Part shown: piece after piece, positions 5,937 to 63,739 of the stretch | How positions within the stretch are numbered: the stretch's first letter is position 1 | Layout: every line of letters begins with the position of its first letter | Source of the DNA: Terriglobia bacterium | GTDB lineage: Bacteria > Acidobacteriota > Terriglobia > Terriglobales > Acidobacteriaceae | Assembly: GCA_020073465.1 (NCBI GenBank) | Contig: JAIQFC010000015.1 | Coordinates: forward strand, 164,074-228,073 | Direction of reading: 5' to 3' | DNA: 64,000 nt | Notes under the pieces: model-generated | The model's database searches: none | Told to the model about the DNA's origin: nothing | Seen by the model: only the letters and a program-made list of their open reading frames with translations | Program-made: the position numbers and the translations under genes

Positions 5937-7457
5937 ATGTTTAAGAAGATTCTGATTGCCAATCGGGGCGAGATCGCGGTGCGCATCATCCGCGCCTGCC
6001 ATGAGATGGGAATTGCTGCCGTGGCGGTCTATTCCGACGTCGACCGCACCGCGTTGCATGTTCGCAAAGCCGACGAGGCCTACCCTATTGGCGCCCCAGC
6101 CGCAACGGAATCCTACCTCAACATCCCGAAGATTCTCGACGTCGCCAAACGATCGGGGGCGGACGCCATCCATCCTGGCTACGGCTTTCTCTCCGAAAAC
6201 GCGAAGTTTGCCCAGGCCTGCACCGATGCGGGGGTGAAGTTCATCGGCCCCACCGCCGCCTCCATGGAAATGATGGGATCGAAGACGCGCGCTCGCCAGA
6301 CGATGGAAGCGGCTGGGGTGCCTCTCGTCCCTGGAACCGCCCGCGGGCTCGAATCCATCGAACAAGCTCAGCAGGTCGCGGAGCGCATTGGGTACCCGGT
6401 CATGCTGAAAGCCGCGGCAGGCGGAGGCGGCAAGGGCATGCGCCTGGTGCACACACCGGAACAGTTGAAATCGTCGCTCGAGGCCGCGCGCAGCGAAGCC
6501 GAACGCTCCTTCGGCGACAGCGAGATCTACGTCGAGAAGGCAATCGTCAATCCGAGGCACATCGAGATGCAGGTGCTCGCGGATGAGCACGGCAGCACCG
6601 TCTACCTGGGCGAACGAGAGTGCTCCCTGCAGCGGCGCCATCAGAAGGTGCTGGAAGAGTCGCCATCGCCGGTCGTCGATCCCGATATGCGGCGCCGGAT
6701 GGGCGAAGTCGCGGTCCGCGTCGCCCAGGCCGCCGGCTACACCAACGCCGGCACAGTTGAGTTCCTGGTCGATCCGCAGAAAAATTTCTATTTCCTTGAG
6801 ATGAACACGCGGTTGCAGGTGGAGCATCCCGTGACCGAACTGGTCACAGGCCTCGATCTGGTCCATTTGCAAATCCGCACCGCCGCCGGAGAAAAGCTGC
6901 CGTTCACTCAGGACGCCGTGCGTCTGCGTGGTCATGCCATGGAGTGCCGCATCTACGCTGAAGATCCCGACAACAACTATTTCCCCAGTCCCGGCAAGAT
7001 CACGCTGCTGATCGCACCCACAGGGCCCGGAATCCGCCGTGACACCGGCATGTACGAGGGCTGGTCGGTCCCGATCGATTACGATCCACTCCTGGCCAAG
7101 CTGATCGGATACGGTGAAAACCGCGAGCAGGTGATCGCCCGCCTCGGCTGCGCGCTCAATGAATACTTTGTGGGCGGAATTAAGACGAACATTTCGCTGT
7201 TCCGGCGAATTCTGAGGAACCCGGACTTCCGCGCGGCGAATCTGGATACTGGATTCCTGGACCGAATGCTGAAGCAGCAGGATGTGCGCAATGAACTCGA
7301 AACCGATCCGCAGGCTGCACATGTGGCCGCGATTGCGGCCGGGATGTTTGCCGCTCTCGCTCCCGCAGCCAACGGCACGAGTGCGAGCACCCCAGACAAT
7401 GGCTCTCGGAAGGTCTCGACTTGGAGGAAGATCGGACGCGATGAAGCACTGAGGTGA
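5937..7457 (+). CDS. accC: Biotin carboxylase subunit of acetyl/acyl-CoA carboxylase
   Basis: 'MFKKILIANRGEIAVRIIRACHEMGI', 'GGGGKGMRLV', 'FLEMNTRLQVEHPVTE'. Confidence 0.95.
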   Translation: MFKKILIANRGEIAVRIIRACHEMGIAAVAVYSDVDRTALHVRKADEAYPIGAPAATESYLNIPKILDVAKRSGADAIHPGYGFLSENAKFAQACTDAGVKFIGPTAASMEMMGSKTRARQTMEAAGVPLVPGTARGLESIEQAQQVAERIGYPVMLKAAAGGGGKGMRLVHTPEQLKSSLEAARSEAERSFGDSEIYVEKAIVNPRHIEMQVLADEHGSTVYLGERECSLQRRHQKVLEESPSPVVDPDMRRRMGEVAVRVAQAAGYTNAGTVEFLVDPQKNFYFLEMNTRLQVEHPVTELVTGLDLVHLQIRTAAGEKLPFTQDAVRLRGHAMECRIYAEDPDNNYFPSPGKITLLIAPTGPGIRRDTGMYEGWSVPIDYDPLLAKLIGYGENREQVIARLGCALNEYFVGGIKTNISLFRRILRNPDFRAANLDTGFLDRMLKQQDVRNELETDPQAAHVAAIAAGMFAALAPAANGTSASTPDNGSRKVSTWRKIGRDEALR

Positions 7458-60855: not shown

Positions 60856-61051
60856 CACCCCGCCCGGCATCTCGCCAACAAGAGATGAACTTTGATCTTA
60901 CAGTCGCAAGAAAAGAAGGGTCAAACCATCACCGGGATAGGAGGTAGGAGGTTTTGAAACCGGACTCCATAGTGAGAATCTAGTAAACAAGGGCCGGTCG
61001 GGCTGGGGCCGAGCGGGGGGCGGGGGGGCGCGGGCGAGCGAAGGAGTACTG

Positions 61052-61813
61052 TCAGAACTGCCCTCGGCGGAAGCCGACCATATGCCATTGTTGTTGGATG
61101 TTGGATAGCCAGTTGCGTGGCTCTTCGTACTTTCGCTGTGCGCTCGGCGACGGTGCGATGGAGCGGAGCCAACTGAGGCGATCGATGGCGATTTTGATGC
61201 TATCGCGAATGGCCATTGGCTCAAATGCACCCTTCGTTGGAACCACCGCAAACCCGTCGAATGCGGGATCATCCAATGGAGACGACGCACGGAACGGAAT
61301 GCGGCGACACGGCTGGATAAACACTGGCCAAGGTACCCTTTCGAGCAACCGTTCCAGTTCATCGTTGTTTGCAGGATCTACCAGCCGACAACGAGAGTTG
61401 AGGTCCGGCACCCGCGCCAGAGCGGACGGAGCTATCATGACTCCAACCCAGTTCTGGGCCTGCTCGAACTGATAAGCATCAATCACGGCCCGGCCTGCGA
61501 CGAAGACACTTTCTGCGACCCTAGATCTAAAGAAGTCACCAAAGGCAATCGCACCTCGAAGTGGGATGCCCTCATCCAAAAGGTGGCTCAATAGCCGTGA
61601 GCATGCACCAGCGACCGCAATGAGTGACTCCGGGCTGTCTCCCTTTGCGGTCAAAACAATACTGTCGGAAAAGACAACGAAATCGACTTCTCTGTCCTCT
61701 GTTGCGTTTCCGAGGCAGTCGATATATCGACGTACTCTCTCGCCTGAAGGATCAGCAGCTACCAAAGCAGAAAAGCCGAGAACGTCAAGCAACGCAACAT
61801 ATCCACCATTCAC
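61052..61813 (-). CDS. Putative class III nucleotidyl-cyclase-fold protein (third gene of ParA-SIR2 operon)
   Basis: 'YVALLDVLGFSALV' (D10), 'FVVFSDSIVLTAKG' (D50), 'GIPLRGAIAFGDFF...SVFVAGRAVIDAYQFEQAQNWVGVMIAPSAL' resemble the order of cyclase homology domain motifs. Confidence 0.6.
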   Translation of the reverse strand: MNGGYVALLDVLGFSALVAADPSGERVRRYIDCLGNATEDREVDFVVFSDSIVLTAKGDSPESLIAVAGACSRLLSHLLDEGIPLRGAIAFGDFFRSRVAESVFVAGRAVIDAYQFEQAQNWVGVMIAPSALARVPDLNSRCRLVDPANNDELERLLERVPWPVFIQPCRRIPFRASSPLDDPAFDGFAVVPTKGAFEPMAIRDSIKIAIDRLSWLRSIAPSPSAQRKYEEPRNWLSNIQQQWHMVGFRRGQF

Positions 61814-61850
61814 GGAGATTCTCCATTGTCTGAAGCAACGTTGATCCTCG

Positions 61851-62711
61851 TCAGGCCGCGAGCGATCTCAGTCCGATCACCTTATCCCTGAGGTCGTTCA
61901 TTGCCCCCACCGCAAGGCCGTGTTTACCTTTGGAATACTCGATGAGCTCAACATTGTGTGTCTTCTTGATCGCGGCTTTAATCGATGGATGTCGAGTCTT
62001 CTCCACGAGAGCATAGTGAGGGTGTGCGCTCGGTGCAGAAATGTTGACATTTTCGAGCACGAGCTGAATATCTGGGTCGGTTAGGCTGGCCCCAACAAAC
62101 AGAATCGTATGTGTCAAAAACAGTGCGTCGAGAACCTGGTAGAAACCCGGATGGTCCCTCTTGGCTGTGTAGTAGCTGGAGCGTGACAGCACAATCTTAG
62201 TGGGATCAGAGACACAACCATGAGCCTTCATGACTAGGCGAACTCTCGATCTGATATTCTCAACCGCGAATCTGTCGTAGTAGCGACATATGTTGTAACC
62301 ACTCCCAGCATTGCCAGAAATACAGTAATGGTCGTATATCTCGTCGTAATTAGTTGTGATAACAATCTTCGGATCGAGTTCCAAGATTATTTTGTGCAAC
62401 TCATTTGGAGAAAACTTTGGCGTTACAAAAGTATTCCGAAGATAATCTGCAAAATCGGCAGGGTTAGTGCGTTCCGTGATAATTTCAGCCGCATCCAAGA
62501 ATTGGTATTTCTTGATCAATGACCTAGCTACCTTTTTATCTGCTTCATCACGTATCAGCGCACTAGCATCAGTCAGGAATGTTTCCCAGTTCGGTGGATG
62601 CGTATTTCCGTTCTCCCCTAGACTTCCCATGGACACTCCCGCACCCATGAAGACGATGCAGCGACGTTCAGCCAACTCTCTTGCGAACGCGGGAGGCCAT
62701 TCGATAGCCAC
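61851..62711 (-). CDS. SIR2-family protein (putative NADase)
   Basis: GTG start; 'CIVFMGAGVSMGSLGENG', 'KIVITTNYDEIYD', 'VMKAHGCVSDPTKIVLSRSSY', 'ILFVGASLTDPDIQLVL'. Confidence 0.9.
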   Translation of the reverse strand: MAIEWPPAFARELAERRCIVFMGAGVSMGSLGENGNTHPPNWETFLTDASALIRDEADKKVARSLIKKYQFLDAAEIITERTNPADFADYLRNTFVTPKFSPNELHKIILELDPKIVITTNYDEIYDHYCISGNAGSGYNICRYYDRFAVENIRSRVRLVMKAHGCVSDPTKIVLSRSSYYTAKRDHPGFYQVLDALFLTHTILFVGASLTDPDIQLVLENVNISAPSAHPHYALVEKTRHPSIKAAIKKTHNVELIEYSKGKHGLAVGAMNDLRDKVIGLRSLAA

Positions 62712-62713
62712 AG

Positions 62714-63739
62714 CTAGTTTCCCATCCCAATATTCCTAGCAAGGGCTCGAACGATATCGGTGAGAGTCTTAGCGTAACCGTCCCGTTGCTTAAACTGGCT
62801 ACCCACCAAACCGTCAGCCGCAACCAACTCCCTGATCGGTGCATTTACCGATTGCGCCAACGGGACGAGACTGTACATGTGGGGAACATCACCCAAATGC
62901 ATGGTCGCGACATCGCGCCCATCTTCCCAGAAGCCCCCCAGTGAGTGTCTGACCTCGCTAGGAATATCTTGCAGGAGCTTTTCGTATGCTTTGGTGGGCC
63001 GCCTGACACCACCCTTAGACTTGGCGATGTACTGCTGAACCGTGTAGCCCGCAAAACCTCGCTTGATTGCAGGTTCTTTCTTGATTTGAAACTCAGCCAA
63101 GGACTCAGAGTCTGAAAGGTCAAACCCGGTCTCGTAAATCTTCAGCCAGTGAGACAGCCATTCAGCAATATTTCTAACTCCAAAGATGCTGAAGAGGTCC
63201 GCCCCCATCGGGCTTACAAAGTACTGTGTTCCAAGTAGCACAGTGCGGTTAAGTGAACCAAGGCTAGGTCCTATATCGAAAAACACGATGTCATACTTGC
63301 CCTCAAGTGAAGCGCAGAGCGCCGCACACCAATTGCTCTTCCGCAGACCACCGATATTGCCGCCCGCAGCTTCGCTCCACGCCTGGCTCAGCGTGTCCTC
63401 GACAATCGAGAGCCGTGGATGGCCCGCGAGAACGTCTGTTCCAAAGCGGTTGGCTGAGGCCAGGATCGGCGTAATGTTAGGGTCGATCGCTGCATCGCCT
63501 ACCTGGAGGGGACGTACAGCATCGAGAATTGTTCCAGTCTTGCCCCGAGTCTCTTTCTGGCGATACAGCTTCTGCGTTGTGGCTTCGTCCAGCACGAGTT
63601 GCGAAGTATTGCATTGTGGATCGCAATCGACAAGAAGAACACGTTTCCTTAACTCCAACGCAAAGTGTGCGGCGACGTTGCATGTCAGCGTTGTCTTGCC
63701 AACGCCACCTTTGTTATTGAAAAAGCAGATTGAAATCAT
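62714..63739 (-). CDS. ParA/MinD-like deviant Walker A ATPase
   Basis: 'MISICFFNNKGGVGKTTLTCNVAAHFA', 'VLLVDCDPQCNTSQL', 'DIVFFDIGPSLGSLNRTVL'. Confidence 0.93.
   Translation of the reverse strand: MISICFFNNKGGVGKTTLTCNVAAHFALELRKRVLLVDCDPQCNTSQLVLDEATTQKLYRQKETRGKTGTILDAVRPLQVGDAAIDPNITPILASANRFGTDVLAGHPRLSIVEDTLSQAWSEAAGGNIGGLRKSNWCAALCASLEGKYDIVFFDIGPSLGSLNRTVLLGTQYFVSPMGADLFSIFGVRNIAEWLSHWLKIYETGFDLSDSESLAEFQIKKEPAIKRGFAGYTVQQYIAKSKGGVRRPTKAYEKLLQDIPSEVRHSLGGFWEDGRDVATMHLGDVPHMYSLVPLAQSVNAPIRELVAADGLVGSQFKQRDGYAKTLTDIVRALARNIGMGN

Follow-up and report, generated by a model that had tools for sequence, protein, structure and literature searches.

A conserved gene pair of a ParA-like ATPase and a SIR2 protein is a probable, so far unnamed defence module of the suicide type

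SIR2-domain NADases, which hydrolyse nicotinamide adenine dinucleotide (NAD+), are widespread suicide effectors with a different sensor controlling each of them, and proteins of the ParA class bind DNA and dimerise under the control of ATP. Here, we describe a ParA-like ATPase gene followed by a SIR2 gene at the end of a 64,000-nucleotide stretch of a Terriglobia bacterium contig (JAIQFC010000015.1, positions 164,074 to 228,073), hereafter called the window. The closest published idea to this ParA–SIR2 pair is a dyad of a ParA/Soj ATPase and a HEPN protein (MAE_18760), predicted to be a toxin–antitoxin (TA) system in which the ATPase is the antitoxin (Anantharaman et al. 2013, PMC3710099). The pair is widely conserved, relatives of its ParA adjoin other toxins and two of these pairings share one known antiviral hotspot; it therefore has the appearance of a suicide-type defence module, so far unnamed, whose weapon can be exchanged. 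We consider it likely that ParA–SIR2 is a two-gene module of the abortive-infection or TA type, in which the ParA-like ATPase gates a SIR2 NADase.

Using the ParA protein alone as query against one genome per species (84,980 species), we found ten full-length relatives. The gene directly downstream encoded a SIR2 protein in 10 of 10, and a cyclase-like gene was present in none of the ten. With a score cut-off taken from a profile built from SIR2-linked ParAs, the SIR2 gene was adjacent to ParA in 43 of the 43 loci of the clade that have at least 900 nt of downstream sequence, and single-sequence searches as well as the clade in the ParA tree agree with this pairing. The two genes overlap or abut in 33 of these 43 loci, mostly by a 4-nt overlap of the ATGA type. 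The same picture was obtained from genome searches driven by the SIR2 protein, where every strong match has a ParA gene directly upstream (nine in the seed genomes and five in 399 Pseudomonadota genomes, one of the latter being a seed); two weaker matches, which lie within large proteins, have no ParA upstream. The initial annotation of the window had treated the pair and a cyclase-like gene behind it as one unit. This trio could not be upheld, since the cyclase-like gene accompanies ParA–SIR2 in the window alone and at none of the 42 other loci, the 81%-identical locus L010 among them. What is conserved elsewhere is the pair, so the refuting condition set in the initial annotation, lack of conservation as a unit, applies to the trio but not to ParA–SIR2.

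ParA–SIR2 pairs were found in Acidobacteriota, Bacillota, Bacteroidota, Myxococcota and Pseudomonadota and also in many prophages. Further pairs are present in plasmid records of Salmonella, Spirosoma, Vibrio, Burkholderia, Neorhizobium and Photobacterium, and many more in prophage-rich viral contigs. Within single phyla such pairs are few: 5 of 399 Pseudomonadota genomes have one, as do 2 of 396 genomes of Acidobacteriota, counting that of the window. A gene for a related N6/N4 DNA methyltransferase lies directly upstream of the pair in Salmonella (L042:5899-6984) and in three viral contigs (L070-L072), and directly downstream of it in a metagenome-assembled genome of Myxococcota (L011:3093-4229). 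At another locus (L127), a broken ParA gene beside an intact SIR2 gene was considered as a natural knock-out; this was discarded because the ParA sequence contains ambiguous bases there and the remainder matches the E. coli allele.

According to published work, the slot between gpA and gpQ of P2-like prophages is a hotspot where antiphage systems reside (PMC9122126). We found that several ParA–SIR2 loci and loci of a sister combination, ParA–RelA_SpoT, are flanked by the P2-type replication gene A (Phage_GPA, 4e-122) and the portal gene Q. ParA–SIR2 occupies the gpA–gpQ slot in both E. coli prophages inspected (from complete genomes), as does ParA–RelA/SpoT in the single E. coli prophage inspected for it. 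This placement is the strongest functional evidence here and is contextual in kind. At an identity of at least 99% over the full length, the E. coli ParA–SIR2 pair was detected in 12 of 5,426 genomes; ParA–RelA/SpoT was detected in 7 of 5,426, and another 15 E. coli genomes carry a different ParA allele, which stands solo in the three that were inspected. The DNA of the Salmonella version of ParA–SIR2 gave no match in E. coli, and the SIR2 and RelA partners gave none in a collection of phage records at strict cut-offs. An ATPase family that is found with unrelated toxins at a single known phage hotspot makes a modular system open to testing, and ordinary laboratory strains can serve to test the hypothesis, since E. 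coli prophages hold both pairings in the same slot.

Both proteins carry intact motifs, and the Pfam matches (Table 1) agree with their first identification as ParA-like and SIR2. In the ParA alignments the motifs NKGGVGK (K10, K15) and DPQ and a distinctive PSLGxxNR are invariant; the KGGVGKT motif together with the fold places the protein among the ParA/MinD (deviant Walker A) ATPases. Its AlphaFold2 model is confident, with a predicted local distance difference test score (pLDDT) of 90.6, and a Foldseek search identified PDB 3pg5 (DIP2308 from Corynebacterium diphtheriae) as the closest solved structure, followed by Soj and ParA proteins. DIP2308 is a full-length relative (profile E 7e-95; Foldseek E 4.5e-21, 32% identity), a structural-genomics orphan structure with no assigned function. 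In the SIR2 protein, the residues G23, G25 and S27 (GxGxS), N121, D123, H164 and G165 are the same in all 44 family members. The protein thus has the SIR2 fold with GxGxS, the catalytic Asn/Asp and the His, as expected of a SIR2-domain NADase effector, and its closest profile relatives are the structures of the antiphage NADases ThsA and DSR2 and of human FAM118B and KomC. In E. coli NZ_CP027368.1 (L196:7004-7876), the SIR2 start annotated in RefSeq at 7082 cuts off the GAGxS NAD-binding motif, and an in-frame ATG at 7004, which has a 4-nt overlap with the ParA stop, restores it.

The ParA family is also found with other partners, and its more distant members, which lack SIR2, are not placed at random. 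In a second clade, the gene directly upstream of ParA has SLFN_AlbA_2 and HATPase_c_4 domains and usually overlaps it by 4 nt, and in a third clade a RelA_SpoT-domain gene (218-315 aa) lies directly downstream. A single HEPN case was found at locus L195, where ParA is followed by a HEPN_RiboL-PSP protein. In a tree of 113 proteins the SIR2, Schlafen and RelA_SpoT clades each reach a Shimodaira–Hasegawa-like approximate likelihood ratio (SH-aLRT) of 100, and the partner labels require 18 changes, compared with 63 when shuffled. Relations between these clades are not to be trusted, because this is a quick LG+G4 tree with long branches. At L098:3755-8293, a SLFN_AlbA_2 gene, ParA and a third gene, which matches the PglZ domain weakly, are tightly packed in a row. 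Solo ParA genes occur near the c2 repressor in P22-like phages, for example Salmonella phage ST160 (L046:5992-7065), and between ogr and the region of late-control gene D in P2-like prophages of E. coli (L219-L221). We tentatively suggest, as a possibility rather than an expectation, that the ParA-like family might serve as a general ATP-switched sensor or guard against invaders with swappable killers (SIR2 NADase, RelA/SpoT-type alarmone synthetase, Schlafen-like RNase, HEPN RNase), combinatorial in the manner of STAND and Panacea networks, and that the solo prophage ParAs might be counter-defence proteins or orphan antitoxins. A ParA-type sensor or guard, if true, would add a class of DNA-segregation proteins to bacterial immunity.

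In the ParA–SIR2 module as we picture it, the ParA-like ATPase would either keep SIR2 inactive or assemble it into its active form, and would change its state upon entry of a phage or another mobile element; the cue may be DNA, a phage protein or a nucleotide change. SIR2 would then hydrolyse NAD+ and thereby halt the cell before the invader multiplies. A conflict-type module in which an ATPase accompanies an effector of the SIR2 NADase kind, as the initial annotation had proposed, is supported by the conserved pairing, the intact NAD-site residues of SIR2 and the toxin-type partners of other ParA clades. Several points weigh against a gated NADase in defence. The mobile-element context would fit addiction or superinfection modules too. 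The SIR2 enzyme may instead be a deacylase, though its nearest profile relatives are NADases. Since related ParAs that have no recognisable partner occur in prophages, the ParA-like ATPase may have a role that is independent of a toxin. Moreover, the pair in the window adjoins housekeeping genes, and no other recognised defence gene is present at the visible end of the contig, the upstream side being cut.

The rival that survives best is an addiction or prophage-stabilising module of the classical kind, where ParA is the antitoxin that neutralises SIR2, a cell that loses the element dies or stalls, and phage defence is secondary or absent. Gene order and overlap are like those of two-gene TA modules, the pair is carried on plasmids and prophages, and the ATPase of the ParA/Soj–HEPN dyad is itself a predicted antitoxin (PMC3710099). 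The exchange of partners likewise resembles promiscuous-antitoxin (Panacea) networks (PMC8832971). However, the P2 gpA–gpQ slot is known for antiphage cargo, and SIR2, Schlafen, RelA_SpoT and HEPN are all partner types known from antiphage systems. We therefore regard pure addiction as rather unlikely, and TA and defence roles are not mutually exclusive.

At the locus itself, three open reading frames (ORFs) lie in series on the minus strand (Table 1), with gaps of 2 nt between ParA and SIR2 and 37 nt between SIR2 and the 253-aa ORF; the coordinates, the gaps and the GTG start of SIR2 were all as first annotated. The contig ends together with the window, 261 nt upstream of ParA, and the view upstream is limited to those 261 nt. 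The G+C content at third codon positions (GC3) is 0.58 for ParA, 0.53 for SIR2 and 0.56 for the third ORF, compared with 0.77 for valS and 0.75 for nadC. The atypical composition first noticed by eye for ParA and SIR2 is thus borne out by measurement and extends to the third ORF. A genome of the same genus (G084) has kept valS at 79% DNA identity, with all three genes missing upstream. The three-gene block is probably an addition in the lineage of the window, because the similarity to G084 ends past a 48-nt stretch upstream of valS and the three genes are absent there. Together with the low GC3 of all three genes, their absence upstream of valS in G084 supports the horizontal acquisition suggested in the initial annotation.

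Table 1. Features at the ParA–SIR2 end of the window (positions within the window)
Feature	Position	Strand	Evidence and proposed role
ParA/MinD-like P-loop ATPase, 341 aa, ATG start	62714..63739	-	Pfam AAA_31 8e-25, CbiA 1.5e-16; proposed gate/sensor or antitoxin
Single-domain SIR2 protein, 286 aa, GTG start	61851..62711	-	Pfam SIR2_2 1.6e-24; proposed NADase effector
Class III nucleotidyl-cyclase-like protein, 253 aa, GTG start	61052..61813	-	AlphaFold2 and Foldseek; neighbour, probably outside the conserved unit
Last stretch alignable to same-genus genome G084 upstream of valS	60893..60939	-	blastn 87.5% over 48 columns, no similarity beyond, where the probable acquired block starts

The third ORF gave no Pfam, PADLOC or useful NCBIfam match. 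Its AlphaFold2 model, built from five sequences, is usable for about residues 1-132, with ten-residue confidence means mostly between 64 and 86. The label 'cyclase-like' given to it earlier is right at the level of the fold, because the structure predicted for its N-terminal half resembles class III nucleotidyl cyclases, with Foldseek matches to adenylyl and guanylyl cyclases of this class (E 6e-7, probability 1.00). Relatives occur in only 9 of 337 Acidobacteriota genomes, including that of the window, and their settings are mobile or defence-like (L038, L039, L052, L214, L215, L218). By eye, they are seen next to proteins of the DUF4145 type close to integron-type integrases, within what is probably a Tn7-like element, and beside type I restriction genes. 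A scan of viral contigs with the cyclase-like protein of the window found nothing.

One could imagine that the trio is a Pycsar-like system of NAD+ depletion gated by a cyclic nucleotide, in which an infection signal made by the third protein activates SIR2. Its class III cyclase-like fold, the residues D10 and D50 that are invariant among its relatives, and its position 37 nt behind SIR2 on the same strand with an equally foreign composition would fit, as would a relative in another acidobacterium (L218/L040), which stands 66 nt behind a different SIR2 protein of 910 aa. However, ParA–SIR2 is a neighbour of such a relative in the window only, and neither L010 nor any other of the 42 further loci has the gene beside the pair. 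In addition, the SIR2 protein is single-domain and lacks a cyclic-nucleotide-binding domain, and in our reading of the alignment AxxxE replaces the stretch where class III cyclases carry the catalytic Asn and Arg. Gating by a nucleotide signal, one of the two options raised at the outset, is not supported, given the absence of the gene beside ParA–SIR2 elsewhere, and we judge it very improbable; the cyclase-like gene is probably a separately acquired neighbour. Least credible is a module for DNA partition or chromosome organisation with an NAD-dependent modifying enzyme, an alternative that had also been named at the outset: the ParA fold, the Walker motifs and the many copies on plasmids and prophages would suit it, but no ParB recurs near SIR2-type loci or lies downstream in the window (whose upstream side is cut), the Vibrio ponticus plasmid pVPon1 has its own ParA–ParB a few kb from the pair, many copies reside in chromosomes or integrating prophages, and the partners in sister clades are toxin-type.

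Returning to ParA–SIR2 as a two-gene module with a gated NADase, we found no named system that contains this pair in PADLOC-DB 2.0.0 or in the open-licence literature, in agreement with the initial annotation. PADLOC-DB 2.0.0 has no model for the window ParA and gave only a 40-residue P-loop match to PDC-M28B. No paper naming ParA–SIR2 or ParA–RelA_SpoT was found in the open-licence literature; the 169 P2-hotspot cassettes tabulated with PMC9122126 may include the pair as an untested cassette. The claim of novelty for the pair as a system is thus moderate.

Membership in Thoeris, Nezha, DSR, Kongming and Pycsar was considered and rejected, as their defining features (for Pycsar, that of the effector) are missing. 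Thoeris ThsA is the best PADLOC and PDB profile match of the window SIR2 over the SIR2 domain, but the 286-aa protein is without SLOG and the match stops at position 248 of 478 of the ThsA profile; no ThsB and no recurring TIR gene were found beside ParA–SIR2 loci. DSR1 and DSR2 are proteins of about 1000-1200 aa with a large C-terminal sensor region, whereas the window SIR2 matches their SIR2 region only. The resemblance to KomC of Kongming (KomABC; 4e-21) likewise lies in the SIR2 domain, and KomA and KomB are not among the recurring neighbours of the pair, which are ParA and mobile-element genes. As to Pycsar, the PADLOC cyclase models give no match to the third protein, whose class III fold was seen in the predicted structure by Foldseek, and Pfam detects no cyclic-nucleotide-binding domain of a Pycsar effector in SIR2 or ParA.

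Nezha (SIR2-HerA) also consists of two genes, a SIR2 NADase and an ATPase. Its ATPase is a HerA/FtsK translocase, whereas that of the window is of the ParA/MinD deviant-Walker type (AAA_31/CbiA) and has no HerA match. The sister ParA clade with RelA_SpoT-domain proteins, for which a synthetase role is putative, recalls the toxic small alarmone synthetases (toxSAS, CapRel) and the Panacea network, where one partner family serves many toxins; here, the partner is a ParA-like ATPase and not a Panacea antitoxin or fusion. Compared with the ParA/Soj–HEPN dyad, the effector in the window is SIR2 NADase-like and no HEPN is present there, HEPN_RiboL-PSP having been found once, at the sister locus L195. 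In both cases, two genes combine a ParA/Soj-type ATPase, likened by type alone, with a toxin-type effector.
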